Shown here: positions 1-53,651 of the stretch, piece after piece | Numbering within the stretch: position 1 is the first letter of the stretch | How the letters are laid out: the number at the start of each line of letters is the position of its first letter | From: a virus | Virus record (IMG/VR): IMGVR_UViG_3300024273_001117 | Location: 1-53,651 of that record | Reading direction: 5' to 3' (one strand) | Length of the DNA stretch: 53,651 nt | The notes under the pieces: generated by a model | The model's input: only the letters and a program-made list of their open reading frames with translations | Told to the model about the DNA's origin: nothing | The model's database searches: none | Translations under genes and position numbers: made by a program

Positions 1-3000
1 GAAGAAGAAGCCAAACGCAAAGAAGAAGAAGCGCGCCTAGCCCGCGCCGCAGCCGAACAAGCGGCGCGTGACGAGCGCCGCAAGTTGACCCCCGAACAAC
101 TGGCCGCGTCTGCCGCAGCCGCACCAACCTTGCCAGCAAGCCCAGAGGCACAGGAGCAAGAGGCGCGACTTGCTTACGCCGCACAGCTTGACGTGGACAA
201 GGAAGCGGCGCGCGTTCTGCGCCTACAGCTATCCGCAGATGAAGTTGCCAAGCGTGAAGCACTGGCAAACACCGTTGGCCCGACGCTCAAAGAGGACGCG
301 ACGGCGGGTATTCTTTCCGCACAGCAGGGCTGGGAAGCACTAAGCAAGGTTGCACCCGGCATCGCGGACGAGGCCAGCGGCAAGTATCAGCAAGACATTG
401 GCACCAACGCAGACCGACAGCTTGCCGACGTATCGCGCGAAATGGCGCAGATCGAAACGGCGCTGAAGGACCGAAGCCAGCGCGAAAATCGGCCGCAGCT
501 TCAAGCCCGATATGCCGAACTTGGCGCGGAGCGTAACCAGCTTGGACTCGCGCTTGGGTCTGGCGGCATCGGCGCGGCACTGGCAGAAGGCAAAGCCGAG
601 CAAGCACGGGGCCGCGCGTCTATTCTTGAAGGTTCCGCCAACATTGGCGAAATCGGCAAGAAGCTGGCGCTTATCCCGACAGATGCGCGCATGGACGACT
701 TTGCCAATTCTACCGGATGGATCGAACCGCTTGGCAAATTCCTGCGCGAACCGGGGGCGATCACGCGGCAAGCAATCCTGCGCTCACTTCCAGCAATGGC
801 ACCCGCCGTTGTCGGAACGGTTGCAGGCACCGCGGTTGCAGGCCCAGTAGGCGGCGCGGCGGCAGGCGGTTCTATTTCCGCAGCCACAGAATACGGTATG
901 TCTGTTTCGCAGGCGCTTTCTGAAATCTATGCCGAGAACAAGATCGACTCGACCGATCGCATTGCCACAGAAATGTTCCTCGACAAGAACCCCGATATTT
1001 TTGACGGCGTGTTGCAGAACGCAGCAACGCGGGCGGGCATCATCGGCGCGATTGACGCCGTGTCCGCTGGCACCGCTGGCTGGATCGCGGATGCGGCGAC
1101 CGCTACAGGCAAGGCCAAACGTGCGGCATACATTGCGGCAGGCGGATTGGTCGAAGGCTTTGGCGAGGGTCTGGGCGAACTGTCCGCGTCCGTTGCGACG
1201 ACAGGCACCTACAACCCCGCCGACGTTTTGGCCGAAGCCATTGCAGGCGTTGGCATGGGCTTGCCACAGACGGCGGCACAAATGGCCGCGCTGGGTATGC
1301 AGAAAGACGGTCCACCGCCCCCTATCACGCTGAACGCAGGGCGCGACCGCGACCGCCTTGCAAGCCCGTTGCTGACTACAGCCGACCGTGAAAGCCCGAT
1401 CCAGAACGACGTGATTGACGACGGCAAAGCCGTATTGGAGTCCGTGATCAACGGGACAGGCCGGACAACTCCCATCCAGCCTACCGCCCCGGCACAAGAC
1501 GCGGGCCTGTCTGGCGCACTGACAGGCGCACCAGCACCCGTTGCACCCCCAGTGGCACCCATTGCACCCCCAGTGGCACCCGTTGCGCAGGCCGCGCCCG
1601 TGGCACCCGTGCAGAACCCCAATCTGCCCGAAGGTGCGGTTCCTTTCAGCACCCTTTACGGCGAGGAAGAAGCTGACCCCACAGACGCCCCAATTCCATC
1701 GCCAACCGTTGAACAGCAGGACGACGAAGCCAAAGCGTTTTGGGAAAAGGACGCCGCTGACCGCATTGCGGCAGAGGAGCAGAACGCCCCGGCCCCCGAC
1801 GTAGCGCCGACCAAGGCAGCAGTAAGCCAAGGTCTGACCGCGCCACAAGTTGAGGCGGCACAAGACCAAGCTGACGGCATCAACATCACCAACCTGACGA
1901 GCGAACAGGTCGGGCAGATTGAGACTGACGCCAAGGTATTCCAATACAAAGACGACGGCGACCAGAACGGCGTGACAACTGTTTTGCAGGGAACGAAGGG
2001 CTGGGACCAACGGTCTGCCACTGGCGCGATCATCTATGAATATGCAAACGGACGCCGCGTTGTTGCGGACGGCCACCAGCGTCTAGGCTTGGCAAAGCGT
2101 TTGCAGGCGGAAGGTCAGAAAACCCCTTGGACGGTTGAGATTATCCGCGAAGTGGACGGATACACCCCCGCCGACGTTCGGACTCTGGCCGCGCTCAAGA
2201 ACATTCGGCAAGGTTCCGGCACCCCTATCGACGCAGCCAAGGTTTTGCGCGAGACGCCGACAGAGATTGAGGCGCTGAACCTGCCGCCAACGTCCGCGCT
2301 TGTGCGCAACGCAAAGGGCTTGGCAAAGCTGTCAGACGACGCCTTTGGCATGACGGTCAACAAGGTTGTCAAATACGAGTGGGCGGCGGTTGTCGGCAGC
2401 ATGGTTGCAGACACCACGGCACATTCCCCGATCATGGGTCTGTTGAAGAAGCTGGAACCCGGCATTAAAAACTTGGGCCAAGTGGAGTCCATCGTCGCGC
2501 AGGCGATGCAGACGACCGCGACCGAGACGCAAACAGATATGTTTGGCGATACAGAGGTGACGGCCAACCGTTATCTTGAGCGCGCCAAGATCATCGACGC
2601 AACGATGTCCCGGCTCACGCTAAAGGGAAAAGTCTTTAAGGCGTTGCTGGACAAGTCTGACCTGATCCAGAACGCGGGCAACCAGCTAAATCAAGCTGGC
2701 AATGCCACGATTGTTGACGACGTAACCCGCGTGACCGATTACATTCGGTCGCAGGCAAACATGAAAGGCCCAGTCAGTGAAGCCCTTACAGCAGCAGCCA
2801 ACCAACTCGCAGCAAACCCCAAAGCAATCGGAGAAGCCGTCAAATCCTTCCTCGACGCAATCAACGGGCCAGAGGTCCAAAACGCTAACGGAACTGAATC
2901 TGTTAGCGGCGGGGCTGGCAATCAGGGAAGCCAGCTACAAGGACCAATTCCGAACCAAGAAGTAAGCCCCGGCACCCCCGACGTTGATATGTTTGGGGAG

Positions 3001-6000
3001 CCGATCAAGACAGCAGCCCCAGCAGCAGCGCCAGAAGGCGACAACGCAGACGGCGGAATGTTTGGCGACCTGCCGACCGACGACGGCGGCAAGGGTGCGC
3101 GCGACCGCGACGAAGTTACCGTTCGTTCCAATCAGGGAAAGGCCGGCACTCTAAACGGCAACAGCGCCGACGCAGGCGCTTTGTTCGAGCAGGGCGCGCA
3201 GCCTGATAACGGCATCGACGCGCCCGCGCAGGCAGATCGTCCGCGCGCAAAGTTTGGCGATACTGACTACACGCTGACCGACGCCATGAACGACCTTCTT
3301 GATATGAACAACGAGCAGGCGGCAAATGGCATGGTAGGCGACTCGCGCCTTGCCGACCGGATTGAAAACCAGAAGTCGATAGTAAAGCGGATGCAGGCCG
3401 ACACCGACGCGCCCGCCAACGGCATGACAAAAGACGCGACCGAGTCCGACATGGCCGCGTTGAAGGCCGCAGGGTTTGTCCGTCAACCGGGCGAATTGCC
3501 CGTTTATATTCGCACCAAGGACGGCACGACGCAGAACATCTTAGTTGGCGCTGACGGCTCTTTGGTTCTGACCGACAAAGACTCCAACTACGAATATGCG
3601 ACAGACCCCGACAATGCCGCCGAGATCATCGGCAACGCCGACGAAGCGATCACGACAAAGGCAGAGGACGCAATTACCAACGCTGAATTTGCAGCAGCGG
3701 CAGCAGTCCGAGACACAGACAAGGCCGCAGCAAAAGTAATCGACACGGCGTCATTGACTGACGCAGGCTTTACCCAATCCAAAAACGGGCCTTGGAGCAA
3801 AAAGGTATCAGACGGGACCGGAAGCCGCACCTATCTTGTCAACATCAACTACCGCGAAGCTGACAAGAAATGGATCGCCATTGCACGGCGCGACACCGAT
3901 CTAGGTCAGGGACCGGGCGGCGTCACCAATCCGCCGACCAAGCAGCTTGGCACCTTTGACACCGCAGAGGCCGCTATCAAGTCGATGGTTAATGACGGCA
4001 TGAACGCGCCGCTATCCAACCCGACCGCAGCACCAGCACCGACGCAGGCCGCAGCACCGAAGGCCCCGGCAGCAGCAGCGCCAGCCCCGGCCAAGCGTCC
4101 AAGTGGTCTAAGCCCCGAAAAGCAAGCGCGCCTAGCTGAACTTCAAGCGGCTATCGCGGCCAAGTTGCGCAACCAGACAAACGCGGGCCTTGACCCTGAA
4201 TTGGTATCTATGGCGCTGGAAAGCGCGGGCCTTTACATTGAGTCCGGCGTTCGGCGTTTCCGCGACTATGCGCTGAACATGCTGGAAGTTACCGGACTAA
4301 AATTGCCGATCATTGGCCGCTATCTGCGTATGTCCTACAACGACCAGCGCGACGAAATGGAATCCAACGGCGAGTCCGTTTCCGACATGGACAGCAGCAG
4401 CGAAGTCATTAAGGAACTGGCCCGCCTGAACATTGAAATTAACGACGCGGAAGCCCAAGCCCCAGCGCCGGACGCAGCCGAAACCGAAACCGCACCAGCG
4501 CCGAAGCCAGCCCCGGCACCTACGGCGCAAGAGCCACAGACCATTGCTGACAAACTGCGCAAGGCCAAAGAGGGCGGAACGGTCGAACACGTCACGGCCA
4601 AGGGCAAGACGCTGACCGGGTATGTGGTTGACCTGACCAAAGACGAAGCAAAAGAAGTTGACGCCTATTCCTTCAAGAAGGACGACGGCATCTTTGTGCG
4701 TGAAGCCGCCGTAACTAATTTCTTGGGTGACGCTGAACCCGACGCAGCGCCGATCACAACCCCCGCGCCGACCACACCCGCCGCGCCGATCACGGACTCG
4801 CCGTTTTATCAGACCAGCGTTTTCAAGACGCGCCTTGTCGCCGGGTTTGTCCAAGCCTTTGCGAGTGGCAAAGACTTTCCAACCATCATATCTGCCCGCA
4901 AGGCAGTCGAAGAATACACGGGCAAAGCCTACACGCCCGAAATGTCTAAGACCGTGGAAGAAGCTATCGAACTGGCCGTGGTTATCCACGCGCGCAACAT
5001 CATCGAAGCATCCAGCGACATGACCGAGGCGCAGACTTACGAGCGCATGGTCGAACTTTACGCGGCACAGCCCAACCTTGCACAGCGCACCAGCACCAGC
5101 GTTGAAATGCAGGCGTATTCCACCCCGGTCCCGCTGGCATATCTGGCGTCCCGGCTTGCCGAGATTAACGGTTACTCCGTGGTCTATGAGCCAAGCGCAG
5201 GCAACGGTATGCTTTTGATGGAAGCATCCCCGGCCAACATTCAGGCCAACGAGCTACAGGCAGAGCGCGCAGACGGCCTTCGCCGCGCGCTAGGCCCTGA
5301 CGCTACGGTGACAACTGGTGACGCCATGAAGGCCACCCCAGCGCCTTACGACACGCTGATCACAAACCCGCCGTTCGGCAAGGTCCGCAACGAAGTGGGC
5401 ATGGCAACGGTTTATGACCTGCGCGGCCTTGGCATCCAGTCGAACGAGATTGACCACGCCATATCGGCGCTGGGTCTGGACGGGTTGCCGGACGACGGAA
5501 CCGCAGTTTTGATCATCGGGGGCCAGAAAGGGTCTACACAAGAGGAGCGCCGCGACCAATATACTAAAGGTGGAAGCCGCGCGTTCTTCAAAACCCTATA
5601 CGACAATTACAACGTCACCGAACACTTCACCGCAGCAGGCAAGCTATACGTTAAGCAGGGCGCGGCATGGCCCGTTGATGTGATAGTGATCAAAGGCAAA
5701 GGCAAAAGCGCCAAGCCTTACCCAATGGCACAAGCACCCGCAGTCTATTCGACGTGGGACTCACTAGGAGAACGGTTGAATGGCACGGATAGTTTGGACA
5801 CCCGCAGCATCGCAGTCGGGGATCGGGACAGTAGCAATGAATCGACCGACAGCGCCCCTGACTCTGGATCAATACCGGGGGGCATTGGCGGGCAGGATCG
5901 ACCGAATGATACAACGGACGGACCCGCAGGAAGTGCAGGAAATTCTACAACTGGCGGAGGACTACGAGGGCCTGTCAGTGACAGCGGACCCATCGGAGAC

Positions 6001-9000
6001 GGGAACGATACTGGTATTCGAGTCGGAGACACTGGCGGAATTGTCGGGGATGCTGGGAACATCGTGGCCGATACCAACGGACAAAATCAAACAGGTGCTA
6101 ACCCCGACTCTGGAGGAACTGGAGGAAACGGAACTAAGCGACTGGATGGGCCAACTGTATCGCCGCAGCGAGTAGATCGCCAAAACGACGAAGCCGAAAC
6201 GTCTTTCCAAGTCCAGTATGAGCCGCGTTCAAACTCGCAGTTTGCCGTTGGCACCCTTGTGCCGAAGAACATGCAGCAGGCAATGTCCCGCGCGCTGGAC
6301 GCGCTTGAATCCCGCGTTGGCGACATTGACGATTATCTTGCTAGAAAGCTGGGCTACACCCGCGACGAAATGCTGGGCGTCATGGAGGTCGGGTCGGACG
6401 TTCCTGCCGCGCAGGTAAACTTGCGCCTAAAAACGGCCGATTTGCAAAAGGCGATGCAGGCGGCACAGCAGCAGACCAAGCGCGGCGACGTGCGCAAAGC
6501 CAACCTTGCCGTCATTAAGGCATCGCAGGCCGTTGCACGGGCGCGGGTTGCGCTACGCCAGCAGCAGGCAATCAAGCCAGTCGAAGGCAAGGCCGGGTAT
6601 TTTTCCGCTGAACAGATGGACGCATTGGCCCTAGCGATCGACAACGTTGAGCAGGGCAAAGCGTTCATTATTGGCGACCAAACAGGCGTAGGAAAAGGCC
6701 GCTTTGTGGCCGCTATGCTTCGCTATGCCGACCGCAACGGCATGGCCCCAGTGTTCGTGTCAAAGGACGGCGGGCTTTACGCCGACATGATACGCGACAT
6801 GCGCGATATCGGCATGGCCGACGCAGACAAGAGCGTGATGATCACCAACACCAACTACAAGGGGAAAGACGTTCTTTCCCTAAGTGCTGACCCCGAAGAT
6901 AACCTTGCCAGTTTGCAGCCAAAGAAGCTGGCCGACGCCATTCGCCATATCACGCAGAAAGGCACCCTGCCCGCAGGCGTGAAATACTTGTTCACGACAT
7001 ACAGCCAGATGCAGCAGTATCGGGGCCAGACGACAGACCGCATGTTTGCGATGGAATCCATTGCCCCGCGCGCCATGTTTATCTTGGACGAAAGCCATGA
7101 AGCAGGCGGCGTCAAAGGTGCGGGCAACGACACAGAGGACGGCAAAATGCCGCGTTCTGTTTTCATCCGGCAATTACTGGCGGCATCGAAAGGCGTTGTG
7201 TTTTCATCCGCGACCTACGCCAAGAACCCGTCTGTTATGTCCCTTTACGCCAAGACCGACTTGAGCCTTGCCGTGGACAACATCGACCAGCTTGAAGGCA
7301 TGATCACGGCAGGCGGCGTCCCGCTGCAACAGGTCATGGCTAACATGCTTGTTGAGTCCGGCCAGTATGCCCGCCGTGAACGCTCTTTCGTGGGCGTTGA
7401 AATGGGCATGAAGGAAATGGTCACAGACCGGGCAATGGCGGAACGTGGCGCAGAGGTTATCCGGTCCCTGTTTAACCTTGATGTGCAGGTCATGCAGGAC
7501 GTGCGCGAGAACTACATCAAAGACGCCGCAGAGCAGGGCTTGGCGGGCGTAGTCGATGCAGCCGTGGGTCAAGCGGGTATGTCCTCGACCAACTTCGCGT
7601 CCACCATGCACAACTTGGCGTCTCAATTCCTTCTGGCGATCAAGGTCAAGGCAGTCATTGCCGAGGCGGTTGAGATCCACAAGTCGGGCAAAAAGCCCAT
7701 CATCGCCTTGTCGAACACCAACGCCAGCATTATCAGCGAAGCCGCTGCCGAGGCAGGCGTTAGCATTGGCGATGAACTGAATGTCCCGTTCAACAAGATT
7801 CTTGAGCGTTACCTTGCGCGCCTGCGCCGGATCACGGTCAAGGACGAGTTTGAGAACAAGACCTACGTTTACCTGACAGACAGCCAGATACGCGAACATG
7901 GCGGCGCAGGGGCATTAGATGCGTTCAATGAAGCCAAGGCGTTCATTCAGAATAGCAACCTGTCCGGCCTGCCCGGTTCGCCCATTGACGCGATCCTAGA
8001 CGGATTGGCAAAAGCTGGAATCAACGGCGACGAAATCACGGGCCGGAACATGACGCTTCGCAGCAACATCATGGCATCGCGTGAAGCAAGCCCAGCCGCA
8101 AAGAAGCGCGTGATGCGCGCCTTTAACAACGGCGATCTTGATGCACTTGTCATCAACCGTTCGGGGTCCACCGGGTTTTCGATGCACGCTACTGGCCGCG
8201 ATGGAAACGACGGCAAGCCCCGGCACATGATCATTCTGCAACCAGAACCGAACATCGACATTTTCATGCAGATGCTTGGCCGTATCCACCGGACAGGCCA
8301 AATCGAATTGCCAAGCTACACCATTGCCGTGTCTGACCTTGCCGTTGAGAAGCGGCCAGCCGCCGTTCTGATGCGCAAAATGGCATCGCTGAACGCCAAC
8401 ACGACCGCCAACAAAAAGAGCGCGGTTAGCTTGGATAACGTGGTGGACTTCCTCAATTCATACGGCGACCGCGTTGTAGCGGAATACCTGCGCGAAAACG
8501 AAATGCTTGCCGTCCAGCTTGATATCGGGGTTCCGGCAGCAACCGCCCCGGCAGTTCAGCTAGACGGCCTTGCCGCGAAGTTTACCGGACGCCTAGTGTC
8601 GATCCATCCTGACGAAGTTACCCGTATCTACAACGACATTGAGGGCGCATATCAGGACTATATTGCCGCGCTAGATAGCATGGGGATGAACGCCCTAGAG
8701 GCAAAAGTCCTAGAGTTGGACGCGCGCACCGTCAATACGACAGAGATTGTCGCGGCAAGGGACGAAAGTTCACCGTTCGGCCAAGCCTCTTACGTTGAGA
8801 CGGTCGATGTGAAGCGACTGGGCAAGCCCTATTCGCCAGACCAGCTTGAAGCCGAAGTTGAAAAGGCGACAGACGGCGAAGATGGTGGCAGCTACGTCAA
8901 CACCCAAGTCGAAACGTTGCGCGGGATGCTGGGCGGCGCAGAAAAGAAGCTGTCCGATAGACTGGACCTTGCGCTTAGAAAGCTGGAAACAGCAGCAACA

Positions 9001-12000
9001 GACAAGCAACGGAGCGCGGCACAAGACAACATTAACCGGATAATCGCAGCGAGAGACGGGCTTCAGGAGCGTTTCAGCGCCATTGCGGGTATGATGGAGT
9101 CCCTCGCAGCAGGCCGCGCCGGGATTATATCGCAGGGCGTTGGCGAGTCCGCGCAGAGTTTTGCCGCCGTGTCGCTGGGCATTGATATCAAGCGCGTGAC
9201 GGGCAACCCAACAGCCGCGTCTAACATCGTGGTTCGGATTGCCATTGCCGACGCAGGCAAGGAAATGCGCGTTCCCATATCGGGCTTTTTCAACGGCGAT
9301 GCAGGATACACTTGGCGCGAGATTCCAAACCGCCAGCGCAATTCCGTGATCGAAGCGTTTGCCGCTGGGCAGTCTGACAGCCGCGAGACACGCCAGATGA
9401 TCACGGGCAACATTCCTGCCGGGTTCGGTTTGCTACAGCGCGGCCAGATCGTCATTTACACCGACGACAACGGCACCTTGAAGCAAGGCGTCATGCTACC
9501 GAAAAACTTTGAAGCCGGGGCCGAGTTGCGCAACCGCCCGGTTAAACTGTCCGCAGAACAAGTGGGCGAGTTTCTTTCGGTGGAACAAGGTGAGCGCGTT
9601 GTGCAGACTGACGACGGCATTATGTCGATCAGCTACAACGGAACCGCATATTCGCTATTGGTGAGGAAGCAGGGCCACAAGCGATACATACTGAACCAAA
9701 GGGTTCGCGCTATTGCAGGTGACTGGACGGAGCGTAACGACAAGTTCTATCGCCTAAACGTCCGCACCCCTTCGATGCTGGCCGAAGTCCTGTCAGTCTT
9801 TGCCGACAACAATGGCGTTGAATACCAGACCACAACCAACCGGAACGCGGCGCGGGCGATCACGGGCGAAGTAATCCCAGAGATTGAATCGCTGAATGAC
9901 GACGGGGCGCAGCTTTCCAGCCGCGACCAAGCGGCCAGCACCACGACAAAGGAACGCCGCGCAGATGGTTACATCATGCCGGAGTCCGTCGCTGATCGCA
10001 TGATCCCGGCCATGCGCGCCGCGCTGGACAAGATGATGCTGCAACGTGTCAAGGTGAGTGCCGAAAACCGCCGTGACCGTCAGGGCGCGTTCACCGTGGA
10101 TATGCTGGGCAACATGAATATCCTGATCGGGCAGTCCGTCGATCTAATGGCGACCCTGTATCACGAGTCCATTCACGCGATGAAGGAAATGAACCTGTTT
10201 ACAGACGCGGAATGGTCCGCGCTGGAAGCCGAAGCCGCTAAGACGTGGATGAAGAAATACGACATTGAGGGCCGCTATCCAAACCTAGACCGCGAAAGCC
10301 AGATTGAAGAAGCGATTGCCGAAGCCTTTGGCGCTTGGGGTTCTGCAAAGGGCAACGGCACCCAACCCGGCATGATCGCAACCGCGTTTGCGAAGATGAA
10401 GCGAATGGTGCAGGCAATCCGCAACGCCGCGAATGGTCTGGGCTTTGACACCAGCGAGTCAATTTTTGGCAAGGCAATGTCTGGCGAAGTCGGATCGCGG
10501 CCAGAAAACGGAAGCCGCACCTTTGGCACCAAAAACCAAGCCCCGGTAAGCCGCGAACAACAGCGCGCCAACAGCGTTGTAAGCAAGTTTGTGGGCCTAC
10601 CTTTGACCAACGCAGTTGAGGTCAGCACCCCGGCCAAGACGCGGCAGGCGCAGTTCGTCAACGCCCTACAGACGCAACCCATTGATGCAGCGTTCCGTGT
10701 GCCGTTCATGGCCGTGGGCGGCATCGACCAATATGGAAACTGGAAGTATGGCGAGGCGGCGCACAACAAGATTGTGGACGTGATCACCAAGACTGACATG
10801 GGATATTTGCAGCCTCTTGCGGAGGTCTTGCGGACGGGCCTGATCGACCGACACGGGCAAGACCCAAAATACATCGAACGCGACCGCCAACGCGGCATTG
10901 ATGAAGCCATGCTTGCCGCAGAAGGCGCAGAACACATCAAGGCGCTTATGGGCCGCAATATGGACGCCGCAGAGGCAAAGGTGTTGCAAGCTGTCCTGAC
11001 GGGCGAGGCCGTGGGCGATGCTGATATGCAGGCATTGGCCGAGCCAATCCGCAAAGCGATCGACGGTCTAGGTTCGGAGGCGGTTGCGCTGGGCCTAATC
11101 AGCCGTGAAAGCTACGAGAAGAACCGCGCAAGCTACCTGCACCGCGTCTATGAAAAGCATGAGTTTGAAAACGGAAACGTTCAGAAGTGGTCGGAACAGT
11201 TTTTTGGCAATCGCCGCCAGAAGATCGTAGGCAACCAGTTCAAAGGCCGGGGCTTGTTTGAGGAAGTCGAACGCGACCGGATCATGCGCGACAACGCCGA
11301 GTTTGTAGGCGGCACCCGTGGCCGTCTGGTAAAGGGCGAGAAGGTTACGATCCTAGAGTTGCGCGAGGGCGACGGCACACCGGGCCTGAAAGGCGTTGAT
11401 GCAAAGAAGGGCAAGCTACTGCGCCGGGTTTACTGGCCCGCGAACAAGCCTATCCCTGCCGCGATGAACAACTACACCAGCCGTGGCACCTTTGAAGTTC
11501 GTGACGAGAAGGGTTCCAAGATCGTCCTATGGCGTGACTTCACCAAGGGTGAGCGCACAAAGATGGGCGAGATTCTGGACGCGCGCTACACCATCGCAAA
11601 GACCTATCAGCTAATGTCAAAAGACTTGGCAACGGGCCGTTTCTTCAAAGACATTGCAGAGAACGAGGAATGGTCCCGCGCAACGCCACCCGAAAACGAG
11701 CGCGTTGATATGGACCCAGAGCAATACGGTTACAACTTCATCAAACGTATCTGGGCCGACCCCGGTCTAAAGTGGGTTTTGGTTCCAGACACCAAAATCA
11801 GCAAGAGCCAAGCCTATCGCTATGGCGCACTGGCGGGCCGCTACGTCCGCGCCGAGATTTGGCGCGATCTTGTTGAGCAACAGGCAATGAATAAGCCGAC
11901 GTTCTATCATGCGATCCACAACCAGTGGAAGATTATGAAAACCGCGCGCAGCCCCGTGGTTCACGTCAACAACGTTATGTCCAACTTCATGCTTATGGAT

Positions 12001-13254
12001 ATGGCCGATGTTCGAGTCCCTGATTTGATTGCAGGTATCCGGTCAATGGCGTCAGGCGATGCGGCATATATTGAGGCCGCTAGGAATGGCGCGTTTGGCG
12101 CTGACATGGTTTCGCAGGAGTTGCGCGATAACGTCCTGAAGCCGCTGATGCTTGAGTTGAGCAAAGACATGCAGGGCGGCAAGGGCGGATTGGAATGGCA
12201 GTTTGGCGCGATTGGCAAAGTTGTCGCCAAGCTGGGCAGCGCCGTCAAAACAGTCGATGAAAAGATGATCGGCTTGTATCAAACGGAAGATCAAGTTTTC
12301 CGAATGGCGACCTATATCCGCCGCCGTGAGCAGGGCATGACCGCAGCGGAAGCCGCAGTTGAAGCGCGCGACCAGTTCCTAAACTACGATATCCGCGCGC
12401 CGTGGATCAACATTGCCCGCCGTTCGGTCCTGCCGTTCGTGTCCTACACCTATCGCGCAGTCCCGAAACTTGTCGAAACTATGGCAAAGCGGCCTTGGAA
12501 AGTTGCAAAATACATTGCGATCTACCAGTCACTAAACGCGCTGGCCTATGCGCTGGCACCGTCCGATTATGACGAGGAAGAAGAACGCAAATCGTTGCGC
12601 GACGGCGAGGACGGCAAGATTGGTTTCTTGGGCATACCGATCACGGAAAGCCTTTTGCGTATGCCGTATCTTAGCAGCGGCAACCCCGTATTTCTGGACG
12701 TTCGGCGCTGGATGCCAGCAGGCGACGTATTCGATACGCGCGGGGGCGACCTTCCTTCACCGCTGCACATGGGCGGGCCTATTATCTTGGCAATGGAGGT
12801 GTATTTTAACAGGTCGGCATTTACTGGCGAAGATATCTTCAACCAATACACAGACTCTTTTGCTGAACGCACCGGAAAGCGACTCAAGTTCGGGTATCAG
12901 AGTTTTGTTCCTAACGCGCCGTGGATTCCCGGCTCTTGGTATTATGAGAAGATAGCGCGCGCCGTGAAGGGCGATGCGCTGGAATGGGGCAGCAATGAAC
13001 CATATGACGCACTGGACGCTATCATTTCGTCCGCAGGCATTAAGTTGAAGCCGAAGGACGTGGCAGTTGGGATGCGCAGCCACCAGATCACTTTTGACAG
13101 GCTGGAGCGTGAATTTGCTTACGAGCTGTCCAACCTAAAGCGGCAGCGCGAACGCCGCACGATCAATCAAGCATCGTATGAAGAAGCCTACTTACACCTT
13201 GTCGAAAAACGCAATCGTATGCGAGAAAAGAAAGCAGAACGTTTCGGGCAATAA
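1..13254 (+). CDS. Giant polyvalent virion protein (ParB / N6-methylase / SF2 helicase / HExxH / LPD38-like), main part
   Basis: Open from base 1 to the TAA at 13252-13254 (4,417 residues here; 4,467 when joined to the 50 codons at 53502-53651). Joined-protein order: acidic and charged N-terminus; glycine-rich hydrophobic segment (about 317-349); Ala/Pro linker; ParB-like domain with VVADGHQRL (about 680-827); N6-adenine methylase region with NPPF (1839-1842; nt 5365-5376); Gly/Ser/Asp linker (1977-2108); strawberry-notch-like SF2 helicase with GVGKGR (nt 6673-6702), DESH (nt 7087-7098) and QMLGRIHRTGQ (from nt 8269); HESIH peptidase-like motif (nt 10162-10176); LPD38-like C-terminus (nt about 11930-12600). 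Such polyvalent proteins are known in phages and conjugative elements and are thought to enter the cell with the DNA to counter host defences; P1 DarB is a related case. Following the ejection-protein genes directly fits virion packaging. Individual domain activities are inferred from motifs. Confidence 0.9.
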   Translation, partial: EEEAKRKEEEARLARAAAEQAARDERRKLTPEQLAASAAAAPTLPASPEAQEQEARLAYAAQLDVDKEAARVLRLQLSADEVAKREALANTVGPTLKEDATAGILSAQQGWEALSKVAPGIADEASGKYQQDIGTNADRQLADVSREMAQIETALKDRSQRENRPQLQARYAELGAERNQLGLALGSGGIGAALAEGKAEQARGRASILEGSANIGEIGKKLALIPTDARMDDFANSTGWIEPLGKFLREPGAITRQAILRSLPAMAPAVVGTVAGTAVAGPVGGAAAGGSISAATEYGMSVSQALSEIYAENKIDSTDRIATEMFLDKNPDIFDGVLQNAATRAGIIGAIDAVSAGTAGWIADAATATGKAKRAAYIAAGGLVEGFGEGLGELSASVATTGTYNPADVLAEAIAGVGMGLPQTAAQMAALGMQKDGPPPPITLNAGRDRDRLASPLLTTADRESPIQNDVIDDGKAVLESVINGTGRTTPIQPTAPAQDAGLSGALTGAPAPVAPPVAPIAPPVAPVAQAAPVAPVQNPNLPEGAVPFSTLYGEEEADPTDAPIPSPTVEQQDDEAKAFWEKDAADRIAAEEQNAPAPDVAPTKAAVSQGLTAPQVEAAQDQADGINITNLTSEQVGQIETDAKVFQYKDDGDQNGVTTVLQGTKGWDQRSATGAIIYEYANGRRVVADGHQRLGLAKRLQAEGQKTPWTVEIIREVDGYTPADVRTLAALKNIRQGSGTPIDAAKVLRETPTEIEALNLPPTSALVRNAKGLAKLSDDAFGMTVNKVVKYEWAAVVGSMVADTTAHSPIMGLLKKLEPGIKNLGQVESIVAQAMQTTATETQTDMFGDTEVTANRYLERAKIIDATMSRLTLKGKVFKALLDKSDLIQNAGNQLNQAGNATIVDDVTRVTDYIRSQANMKGPVSEALTAAANQLAANPKAIGEAVKSFLDAINGPEVQNANGTESVSGGAGNQGSQLQGPIPNQEVSPGTPDVDMFGEPIKTAAPAAAPEGDNADGGMFGDLPTDDGGKGARDRDEVTVRSNQGKAGTLNGNSADAGALFEQGAQPDNGIDAPAQADRPRAKFGDTDYTLTDAMNDLLDMNNEQAANGMVGDSRLADRIENQKSIVKRMQADTDAPANGMTKDATESDMAALKAAGFVRQPGELPVYIRTKDGTTQNILVGADGSLVLTDKDSNYEYATDPDNAAEIIGNADEAITTKAEDAITNAEFAAAAAVRDTDKAAAKVIDTASLTDAGFTQSKNGPWSKKVSDGTGSRTYLVNINYREADKKWIAIARRDTDLGQGPGGVTNPPTKQLGTFDTAEAAIKSMVNDGMNAPLSNPTAAPAPTQAAAPKAPAAAAPAPAKRPSGLSPEKQARLAELQAAIAAKLRNQTNAGLDPELVSMALESAGLYIESGVRRFRDYALNMLEVTGLKLPIIGRYLRMSYNDQRDEMESNGESVSDMDSSSEVIKELARLNIEINDAEAQAPAPDAAETETAPAPKPAPAPTAQEPQTIADKLRKAKEGGTVEHVTAKGKTLTGYVVDLTKDEAKEVDAYSFKKDDGIFVREAAVTNFLGDAEPDAAPITTPAPTTPAAPITDSPFYQTSVFKTRLVAGFVQAFASGKDFPTIISARKAVEEYTGKAYTPEMSKTVEEAIELAVVIHARNIIEASSDMTEAQTYERMVELYAAQPNLAQRTSTSVEMQAYSTPVPLAYLASRLAEINGYSVVYEPSAGNGMLLMEASPANIQANELQAERADGLRRALGPDATVTTGDAMKATPAPYDTLITNPPFGKVRNEVGMATVYDLRGLGIQSNEIDHAISALGLDGLPDDGTAVLIIGGQKGSTQEERRDQYTKGGSRAFFKTLYDNYNVTEHFTAAGKLYVKQGAAWPVDVIVIKGKGKSAKPYPMAQAPAVYSTWDSLGERLNGTDSLDTRSIAVGDRDSSNESTDSAPDSGSIPGGIGGQDRPNDTTDGPAGSAGNSTTGGGLRGPVSDSGPIGDGNDTGIRVGDTGGIVGDAGNIVADTNGQNQTGANPDSGGTGGNGTKRLDGPTVSPQRVDRQNDEAETSFQVQYEPRSNSQFAVGTLVPKNMQQAMSRALDALESRVGDIDDYLARKLGYTRDEMLGVMEVGSDVPAAQVNLRLKTADLQKAMQAAQQQTKRGDVRKANLAVIKASQAVARARVALRQQQAIKPVEGKAGYFSAEQMDALALAIDNVEQGKAFIIGDQTGVGKGRFVAAMLRYADRNGMAPVFVSKDGGLYADMIRDMRDIGMADADKSVMITNTNYKGKDVLSLSADPEDNLASLQPKKLADAIRHITQKGTLPAGVKYLFTTYSQMQQYRGQTTDRMFAMESIAPRAMFILDESHEAGGVKGAGNDTEDGKMPRSVFIRQLLAASKGVVFSSATYAKNPSVMSLYAKTDLSLAVDNIDQLEGMITAGGVPLQQVMANMLVESGQYARRERSFVGVEMGMKEMVTDRAMAERGAEVIRSLFNLDVQVMQDVRENYIKDAAEQGLAGVVDAAVGQAGMSSTNFASTMHNLASQFLLAIKVKAVIAEAVEIHKSGKKPIIALSNTNASIISEAAAEAGVSIGDELNVPFNKILERYLARLRRITVKDEFENKTYVYLTDSQIREHGGAGALDAFNEAKAFIQNSNLSGLPGSPIDAILDGLAKAGINGDEITGRNMTLRSNIMASREASPAAKKRVMRAFNNGDLDALVINRSGSTGFSMHATGRDGNDGKPRHMIILQPEPNIDIFMQMLGRIHRTGQIELPSYTIAVSDLAVEKRPAAVLMRKMASLNANTTANKKSAVSLDNVVDFLNSYGDRVVAEYLRENEMLAVQLDIGVPAATAPAVQLDGLAAKFTGRLVSIHPDEVTRIYNDIEGAYQDYIAALDSMGMNALEAKVLELDARTVNTTEIVAARDESSPFGQASYVETVDVKRLGKPYSPDQLEAEVEKATDGEDGGSYVNTQVETLRGMLGGAEKKLSDRLDLALRKLETAATDKQRSAAQDNINRIIAARDGLQERFSAIAGMMESLAAGRAGIISQGVGESAQSFAAVSLGIDIKRVTGNPTAASNIVVRIAIADAGKEMRVPISGFFNGDAGYTWREIPNRQRNSVIEAFAAGQSDSRETRQMITGNIPAGFGLLQRGQIVIYTDDNGTLKQGVMLPKNFEAGAELRNRPVKLSAEQVGEFLSVEQGERVVQTDDGIMSISYNGTAYSLLVRKQGHKRYILNQRVRAIAGDWTERNDKFYRLNVRTPSMLAEVLSVFADNNGVEYQTTTNRNAARAITGEVIPEIESLNDDGAQLSSRDQAASTTTKERRADGYIMPESVADRMIPAMRAALDKMMLQRVKVSAENRRDRQGAFTVDMLGNMNILIGQSVDLMATLYHESIHAMKEMNLFTDAEWSALEAEAAKTWMKKYDIEGRYPNLDRESQIEEAIAEAFGAWGSAKGNGTQPGMIATAFAKMKRMVQAIRNAANGLGFDTSESIFGKAMSGEVGSRPENGSRTFGTKNQAPVSREQQRANSVVSKFVGLPLTNAVEVSTPAKTRQAQFVNALQTQPIDAAFRVPFMAVGGIDQYGNWKYGEAAHNKIVDVITKTDMGYLQPLAEVLRTGLIDRHGQDPKYIERDRQRGIDEAMLAAEGAEHIKALMGRNMDAAEAKVLQAVLTGEAVGDADMQALAEPIRKAIDGLGSEAVALGLISRESYEKNRASYLHRVYEKHEFENGNVQKWSEQFFGNRRQKIVGNQFKGRGLFEEVERDRIMRDNAEFVGGTRGRLVKGEKVTILELREGDGTPGLKGVDAKKGKLLRRVYWPANKPIPAAMNNYTSRGTFEVRDEKGSKIVLWRDFTKGERTKMGEILDARYTIAKTYQLMSKDLATGRFFKDIAENEEWSRATPPENERVDMDPEQYGYNFIKRIWADPGLKWVLVPDTKISKSQAYRYGALAGRYVRAEIWRDLVEQQAMNKPTFYHAIHNQWKIMKTARSPVVHVNNVMSNFMLMDMADVRVPDLIAGIRSMASGDAAYIEAARNGAFGADMVSQELRDNVLKPLMLELSKDMQGGKGGLEWQFGAIGKVVAKLGSAVKTVDEKMIGLYQTEDQVFRMATYIRRREQGMTAAEAAVEARDQFLNYDIRAPWINIARRSVLPFVSYTYRAVPKLVETMAKRPWKVAKYIAIYQSLNALAYALAPSDYDEEEERKSLRDGEDGKIGFLGIPITESLLRMPYLSSGNPVFLDVRRWMPAGDVFDTRGGDLPSPLHMGGPIILAMEVYFNRSAFTGEDIFNQYTDSFAERTGKRLKFGYQSFVPNAPWIPGSWYYEKIARAVKGDALEWGSNEPYDALDAIISSAGIKLKPKDVAVGMRSHQITFDRLEREFAYELSNLKRQRERRTINQASYEEAYLHLVEKRNRMREKKAERFGQ
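1540..1581 (+). repeat. 21-nt tandem duplication in a Pro/Ala linker
   Basis: Two copies of a 21-nt unit, differing only at the first base (G or A, then TTGCACCCCCAGTGGCACCC), lie head to tail and encode repeated V/I-A-P-P-V-A-P. They fall in the Ala/Pro-rich linker before the ParB-like domain. Slippage expansion in a flexible linker is the simple explanation. Confidence 0.8.
5780..6175 (+). CDS. Embedded 131-aa acidic protein, overprinted in the giant gene
   Basis: ATG at 5780 follows an in-frame TGA (TGAATG) and is preceded by AGGAG at 5766-5770 with a 9-nt spacer, a near-ideal ribosome site; it stops at TAG 6173-6175. The frame differs from the giant protein. The product looks globular: a mixed N-terminus, then helix-like segments with DPQEVQEILQLAEDYEG, then an acidic LEELEETELSDWMG tail. 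Over the same bases the giant frame encodes only Gly/Ser/Asp/Asn/Thr-rich linker between methylase and helicase, as expected if constraint falls on the inner frame. I do not recognise the family. It may be a once separate gene swallowed by an in-frame fusion, or an overprinted novelty. Expression from its own start is inferred. Confidence 0.72.
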   Translation: MARIVWTPAASQSGIGTVAMNRPTAPLTLDQYRGALAGRIDRMIQRTDPQEVQEILQLAEDYEGLSVTADPSETGTILVFESETLAELSGMLGTSWPIPTDKIKQVLTPTLEELEETELSDWMGQLYRRSE

Positions 13255-52066: not shown

Positions 52067-53509
52067 ATGGTCAACGTATTCGCCTACGGGCTGGCCGGGG
52101 CCACAGAGGGCTTGGGCAACGGCATTGTTGCGCAGGCAGAGGCAAAGCGCATTGCCGCGCTAGAACTGGCGCGCGAACAGCGCGAGGACAAAAGACGGGC
52201 AGAGGATCGCAAGAACGATCTAGCCGACCGCGACGAGGATCGGGCCTACACAACAGGCCAGACGGACGCCTTTAACACGCGCAACGCCGACGCTCTTAGG
52301 GGCGCTGTCAACGAGGATGATTTGTTTAGCCTGATGGACGGCGTTGAAGGCGAAGTAGGTGGAAACTACGATACGCTTTATGGTCACGCCCAGCGCGACG
52401 GTAACAAATACGCCGGAACCCAAGTGACAGGCATGACGCTGGACGAACTTGACCAGTTTGCCGGATTGAACAGCGAATACGGCAAGTGGGTGAAGGCGAA
52501 CAATCCCAAGGGCGACTTTGCGACTCCGGTTGGCCGCTATCAGATCGTAGGCACGACGCGGCGCTATGTGGCAAAGGCGCTTGGCCTGTCTGGCGATACC
52601 GTCTTTACCAAAGACGTGCAGGATCAAATGGCGCGATACCTTGCCACCGAAGCGCTCAAAGGCAAGGCACCGGGCGAAGAAAGCCGCAAAGCGCTTGCTG
52701 GCGTTTGGGATGGGTTTAACACTGGCAAGGTTTCGCCTGATGCGTTTGACCGGGCGATTGAGAACTTCCGCAACGGCGTCACACCACGGCAAGTGTCCGA
52801 AGCGGATGCTTTGGTTCTGGCCGATGATAAAACCCCGGCCAACGTTAAAGCCGCCCTTGAAAAGCAATACGGAATTAACGGCGCACTGGACGGCAATTTG
52901 TCGGGCGAGGAATGGATACCTAACCCCGATGGAAGTGCAACAGAGGTTCGTATGGGAACGGTCAAAGGGTCAAGAGAAATGGTCCCGTATCTGGTGGGGG
53001 GCAAGCCTGTCACCCGACCAACAGAAGCGCGCGACGTTAAGCTGTCCGCTTCCTTTGTGAACACCATCAAAGGCCGATTCAAAGATCAATTTGGCGACGT
53101 GGATCAAGACGCGATTGACGCCTTCACCGGGGAGGTTGTTCGCCTGATGGAAACATACCCGACCATGACGGAGATTCAGGCGCAGGACGACGCGCTTCGC
53201 CGCATGGATTTTGAAGTTACCGTTCTTGACGACGGGCAGAACTGGGTATTTGCCGACACCGCCCCGGTTACAGAGAAGGGCGATTGGAAAAAGACCTTTA
53301 CGCCGCGTGACGACGAGCAGCCAACCATTCAACCAACTGGAGGTGAAACAGTATCGCCACCGACAGCGGACGCCGCTACACAATCACCAACAGCACCCGG
53401 CCCTGCGCCTGACGATCCAACCAAGCGCGTTACAGGACAGGTCTACCGCAGTCCAAGCGGAACACTCGCCACATGGAATGGCATAGGATGGGAATTACTG
53501 AATGGCTAA
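52067..53509 (+). CDS. Virion-associated lysozyme-like ejection protein
   Basis: 480 residues. An N-terminal Ala/Glu/Arg coiled coil leads to a lysozyme-like domain (about 90-225) with GEVGGNYDTLYG (candidate catalytic Glu, about 95) and DFATPVGRYQIVGTT, the GRYQ signature of phage muramidases. The C-terminal part contains SPSGTLATWNGIGWELLNG, a small repeat-like tail. It likely opens peptidoglycan for DNA entry. The giant polyvalent gene starts inside its last codons (8-nt overlap, 53502-53509). Confidence 0.8.
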   Translation: MVNVFAYGLAGATEGLGNGIVAQAEAKRIAALELAREQREDKRRAEDRKNDLADRDEDRAYTTGQTDAFNTRNADALRGAVNEDDLFSLMDGVEGEVGGNYDTLYGHAQRDGNKYAGTQVTGMTLDELDQFAGLNSEYGKWVKANNPKGDFATPVGRYQIVGTTRRYVAKALGLSGDTVFTKDVQDQMARYLATEALKGKAPGEESRKALAGVWDGFNTGKVSPDAFDRAIENFRNGVTPRQVSEADALVLADDKTPANVKAALEKQYGINGALDGNLSGEEWIPNPDGSATEVRMGTVKGSREMVPYLVGGKPVTRPTEARDVKLSASFVNTIKGRFKDQFGDVDQDAIDAFTGEVVRLMETYPTMTEIQAQDDALRRMDFEVTVLDDGQNWVFADTAPVTEKGDWKKTFTPRDDEQPTIQPTGGETVSPPTADAATQSPTAPGPAPDDPTKRVTGQVYRSPSGTLATWNGIGWELLNG

Positions 53510-53651
53510 GATTCTGACCGACGAAGAATTTTTCGGAATACCACCCAAGGCCACCCTTACAGACGAAGAATTTTTAGGCGGACAGACTTCTAACCCCAAT
53601 GCCCCCGACCGAGCAGAAGCGGCCCGTTTAGCGCAAGAGCGCAAGCGGGCC
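53502..53651 (+). CDS. Giant polyvalent protein, first 50 codons (continues at position 1)
   Basis: ATG at 53502 overlaps the virion lysozyme stop by 8 nt (ATGGCTAA). The frame stays open to the last base and has exactly 50 codons, so codon 51 is GAA at position 1 if the ends join. The product starts MAKILTDEEFFGIPPKATLT and then repeats DEEFLGG, a doubled TDEEF(F/L)G motif, then enters a charged Glu/Lys/Arg/Ala helix that continues seamlessly across the junction. Confidence 0.85.
   Translation, partial: MAKILTDEEFFGIPPKATLTDEEFLGGQTSNPNAPDRAEAARLAQERKRA

Follow-up and report, generated by a model that had tools for sequence, protein, structure and literature searches.

The window analysed here, a 53,651-nt virus sequence (IMG/VR record IMGVR_UViG_3300024273_001117), carries on its plus strand a giant ORF (positions 85-13254) encoding a polyvalent-type protein of 4389 aa. 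Within it, an adenine-methylase region with an NPPFGKV motif (4900-5781) is followed by a Gly/Ser/Asp/Asn linker (5782-6210) and, in the same frame and C-terminal to the methylase, by an SF2 helicase composed of an N-terminal ATPase domain (Pfam AAA_34, 6562-7437, E 4.8e-21) and a Strawberry-notch C-terminal helicase domain (Pfam Helicase_C_4, 8032-8493, E 4.3e-17), all on the plus strand. The methylase region gave PHROG methyltransferase matches, and the NPP(F/Y) signature of N6-adenine methylases reads NPPFGKV in the window as well as in each of the 13 sequences aligned.

Wholly enclosed by the giant frame, and in frame +1 relative to it, lies a second plus-strand ORF of 131 aa (5780-6175), which opens with an ATG at 5780, where the methylase region ends, and closes with a TAG at 6173-6175. 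An AGGAG ribosome-binding site (5766-5770) stands 9 nt before the ATG, and an inner-frame TGA (5777-5779) directly abuts it, barring read-in from upstream in that frame. As the original prediction had held, this is a complete ORF that lies in a different frame and has start signals of its own, that is, a nested gene, and the outer frame across it reads as a Gly/Ser/Asp/Asn-rich linker with the methylase before and the Strawberry-notch helicase after. Base composition at the three codon positions (GC1/2/3) was.621/.462/.652 in the inner frame and.626/.451/.659 as the giant-gene average; the outer frame across the nested gene gave.636/.621/.470. The coding signature changes frame exactly at the nested gene. 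A second, nearly identical virus record spans the region and encodes an unchanged inner protein.

A virus with 54% helicase identity had a +1 ORF at the same spot whose product was 31% identical. Scans based on the methylase, run over viral and bacterial contigs, yielded 181 loci, including some repeats of one contig; a helicase alignment search of genome contigs confirmed nothing. Counts were restricted to the 118 loci among L030-L086 and L110-L189 with an unbroken methylase-to-helicase frame. At 117/118 of these, a +1 ORF of at least 85 aa starts at the methylase end, and the +2 frame offered one at 1/118. The combination that was expected to speak against an inner gene, an intact giant frame over a broken inner frame, occurred at a single locus of this clade, L052. 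ORF length alone proves nothing, because a long +1 ORF (at least 85 aa) is also present in 9/21 GC-rich outgroup loci lacking the gene; the chance ORFs of these outgroups are rich in Arg, Pro and Ser. Judged by their titles, the carrier genome loci belong to Alpha-, Beta- and Gammaproteobacteria, Bacteroidales and cyanobacteria, with further carriers in an Acidobacteria MAG, a Phycisphaerae MAG, Nitrospira, Desulfovibrio and deltaproteobacterial MAGs. Distant members (Nitrospira, deltaproteobacterial, planctomycete) keep place, frame and ribosome-binding site, and their homology is argued by position, since most are too diverged for a single profile. The locus in the Acidobacteria MAG (L038:4831-7281) has a methylase gene with a nested ORF, whose outer frame ends 14 nt past the inner stop; it has no helicase, and chromosome-like genes lie downstream.

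Start signals recur across the family. In most relatives a GGAG or AAGGAG is suitably spaced from the start, and several Bacteroidales have weak sites within A-rich leaders. The mean energy of pairing with the 16S tail was -7.6 kcal/mol, versus -4.9 kcal/mol when codons were redrawn synonymously for an unchanged outer protein (Wilcoxon p 2e-16, with rows that are not independent; taken singly, 15% of rows reached p < 0.05). A stop codon directly abuts the start in 34/100 distinct relatives. A separate internal start for the helicase at the inner stop was also considered and rejected, with a nearby ATG in 9/100 and any start within 6 nt in 3/100.

We then asked how often such an arrangement would arise by chance, by holding the protein of one frame fixed, redrawing synonymous codons and scoring the other frame for stops. 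With the outer amino acids of the window fixed, the +1 frame was stop-free in 29% of resamplings; because so many of them are open too, the inner ORF carries little weight by itself. In the reverse direction, keeping the inner protein constant left the outer frame open in 0.7% of resamplings in the window (P = 0.007) and in almost none for many relatives (P ~0). Since the outer frame is so rarely open by chance given the inner protein, the outer reading must be maintained as well.

Substitution patterns, which the original prediction had proposed comparing in both frames, pointed the same way. Among 21 disjoint close pairs, sites silent in the outer and changing in the inner frame differed at 0.107, and sites changing in the outer and silent in the inner frame at 0.317. 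The resulting ratio of inner-changing to outer-changing rates was 0.34 (95% CI 0.29-0.39) in the nested region; in the methylase just upstream, used as control, it was 2.7 (2.2-3.7), a rough value in that a few pairs show apparent stop-making changes, probably alignment slips. Changes creating a stop in the outer frame occurred at 3% of the neutral rate, and a separate analysis on overlapping pairs agreed. The region is dual coding: the inner protein is under purifying selection, and the outer linker is held open and little else, its amino acids drifting near neutrality. The idea that the linker is a by-product of the inner reading thus holds for its composition, which follows the inner codons, and fails for its stop-free state, which is itself strongly selected.

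The inner proteins form a recognizable family. Homologues share 31-38% identity (tblastn E to 1e-23), and one blastp cluster takes 79 of the 100 distinct inner proteins that we gathered (<88% identity). A profile built from 61 of them, which match it by construction, recovers the nested ORF in 89/118 catalogued loci, misses 29 diverged ones and finds nothing else credible in any locus. The best conserved positions are W6, P8, L36, R39, P97, L119 and W122. The family is acidic (median pI 4.57; 4.34 for the protein of the window), and AlphaFold2, run with 61 sequences, predicted a strand pair followed by a helical bundle (mean pLDDT 93.2, pTM 0.88). The expectation of a globular, acidic product was therefore borne out, and relatives carry it. 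A short subtype of about 88-112 aa lacks the N-terminal strand pair; its prediction (pLDDT 93.0, pTM 0.85) has the helices in the same order. For both subtypes, fold comparison gave no match at E <= 0.001 in the PDB and none in BFVD. A PDB sequence search returned nothing credible (one stray match to an unrelated protein, E 0.28), and neither the inner protein nor 17 relatives gave more than stray sub-threshold matches in Pfam, NCBIfam and PHROG. The inner proteins thus appear to constitute a previously undescribed family, with a predicted fold that has no match in the PDB or BFVD.

To place the gene among genomes, we searched beyond the catalogued loci. Searching phages and plasmids with the inner proteins by tblastn yielded no credible match beyond the query's own record. 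Profile matches were found in eleven of ~1,480 host genomes, seven of which had been chosen because their methylase-helicase dyad locus was already in hand; in the four drawn blind (G374, G848, G960, G1001), three copies were nested between methylase and helicase and one was a decayed remnant. The remnant (L191:1498-1860) retains the inner gene plus a little of the outer linker, with no methylase or helicase nearby, in a genome of the same family as L030. On a methylase tree (a quick tree with many weak forks), most members of a single large clade carry the gene. It is lacking in the distant fused outgroup, in L007/L008/L087, in L052 and in the split genes of Bacteroidota; L071 was also scored absent, although it has a 137-aa +1 ORF. 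Three Bacteroidota loci (L059, L062, L066) encode methylase and helicase in two genes that abut directly, leaving no linker and no nested gene.

These distributions bear on how the overlap arose. According to the original prediction, an older gene had been trapped when methylase, small gene and helicase fused, the small gene surviving inside. The inner frame does have ordinary codon-position composition and a confidently predicted fold, neither of which the outer linker has, and on the Gloeobacter plasmid pGMOR1 (L192:3489-3938) the nested ORF is annotated as a gene in its own right (WP_230844304.1) although it lies within an open outer frame, the methylase being left unannotated. However, the searches of phages, plasmids and ~1,480 host genomes for a stand-alone homologue produced none, the decayed remnant being the only copy outside the dyad; the split methylase and helicase genes abut with no small gene between them; and in the distant fused outgroups the linker is ordinary in composition and harbours no inner gene. 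We therefore regard trapping as unlikely and lean towards overprinting of a linker. The age of the overlap blurs the evidence on origin, having erased the codon-usage signal of polarity.

Regarding expression, we consider it quite probable that this is a nested overlapping gene making a separate 131-aa protein alongside the methylase-linker-helicase product. The Shine-Dalgarno site, written into the last methylase codons, would recruit ribosomes that initiate at the ATG at 5780 in frame +1 and synthesize the acidic globular protein from the same mRNA, while the remaining ribosomes would continue in the outer frame to produce the giant protein; selection would preserve the inner sequence and a stop-free linker, and barely the linker amino acids. 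Conservation, start signals, selection on both frames and the confident fold of the inner gene are computational observations, and from them we infer that the ORF is translated in vivo. The opposite view is that the ORF arose by chance or from a sequencing error, or that ribosomes frameshift into it and add it to the giant protein as a domain; it can point to GC-rich, Gly/Ser/Asp-rich linkers often leaving the +1 frame open, as the value of 0.29 in the window illustrates. Such an artefact is very improbable given the identical place and frame in 117/118 loci, the ORF's own start site and stop, the identical protein in the second record, and purifying selection on the inner protein beneath an outer frame that is maintained open. 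A frameshift product in particular is ruled out by the TGA before the ATG together with the maintained outer frame.

What the protein does is a matter of more graded judgement. If translated, it would be made in step with the methylase-helicase, and the original suggestion of a partner or inhibitor remains a candidate: we give slightly less than even credence to an accessory role in which it binds or regulates the methylase-helicase, aiding its folding or packaging, or holding it in an inactive state inside the producing cell. This role is favoured because the profile matched nothing outside the dyad except one decayed remnant, and because loci with split methylase and helicase genes do not have the nested gene; exclusive association with the dyad is nonetheless weak evidence for physical partnership, since nesting forces co-inheritance. 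The protein might instead act independently of the methylase-helicase, for instance in acidic counter-defence, and be sited here because the linker tolerates overprinting. The acidity of the family (median pI 4.6), its great sequence divergence and the near-neutral linker amino acids would suit such a protein, which we hold to be possible but rather doubtful, as the gene was found nowhere else in phage records or the ~1,480 host genomes save for that remnant, and the PDB fold search gave no match. The most specific version of the accessory role, which we offer tentatively and think unlikely in its entirety, is that of a family with a new fold, found only inside methylase-helicase genes of phages from many phyla, whose members are built-in regulators translated from the same message and either hold the antirestriction methylase-helicase inactive or escort it during assembly in the producing cell.

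Nested same-strand genes are known in phages, as in lambda Rz1 within Rz and phiX174 E within D. Here too one gene encloses another, complete gene read in a different frame from start signals of its own; unlike in those pairs, the host gene encodes a giant polyvalent enzyme, the protein family is unrelated, and the inner frame carries the constrained fold over an outer frame that is a near-neutral, stop-free linker. Ocr and ArdA are acidic antirestriction proteins encoded by mobile elements. The inner protein resembles them as a small, acidic protein of mobile elements with antirestriction genes and differs in having no PDB fold match at E <= 0.001 and no credible sequence match. The present gene is old, widespread and almost never annotated; the annotation of Bacteroides phage BS-TP4, for example, lists the giant gene only, although the nested ORF lies at 6695-7054 of its locus L006. 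Its family, so far undescribed, occurs in phages and prophages of Pseudomonadota, Bacteroidota and Cyanobacteriota, and in other phyla as judged by position.

The methylase-helicase dyad itself (DarB-like) has been described in polyvalent proteins (Iyer et al. 2017, PMC5512222), and the outer gene agrees with that description in joining an NPPF adenine methylase to an SF2 Strawberry-notch helicase within a giant phage protein. Unlike here, no nested gene is described there: the word 'overlap' is not used, and reading frames are mentioned once, for separate cassettes (PMC5512222). Our literature search likewise found the dyad described and the nested gene not, an absence that does not prove novelty. 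For DarB-like antirestriction machinery, the nested gene supplies a new testable component, and it indicates that the DNA for a giant protein's disordered linker can also encode a well-folded second protein, the linker's own frame being held only to staying stop-free; other polyvalent-protein linkers are worth scanning likewise. Finally, the second virus record (L002) joins the end of the window (53431-53651) straight to its start (1-221), and because it runs from the one into the other, the map of the window is circular or circularly permuted.
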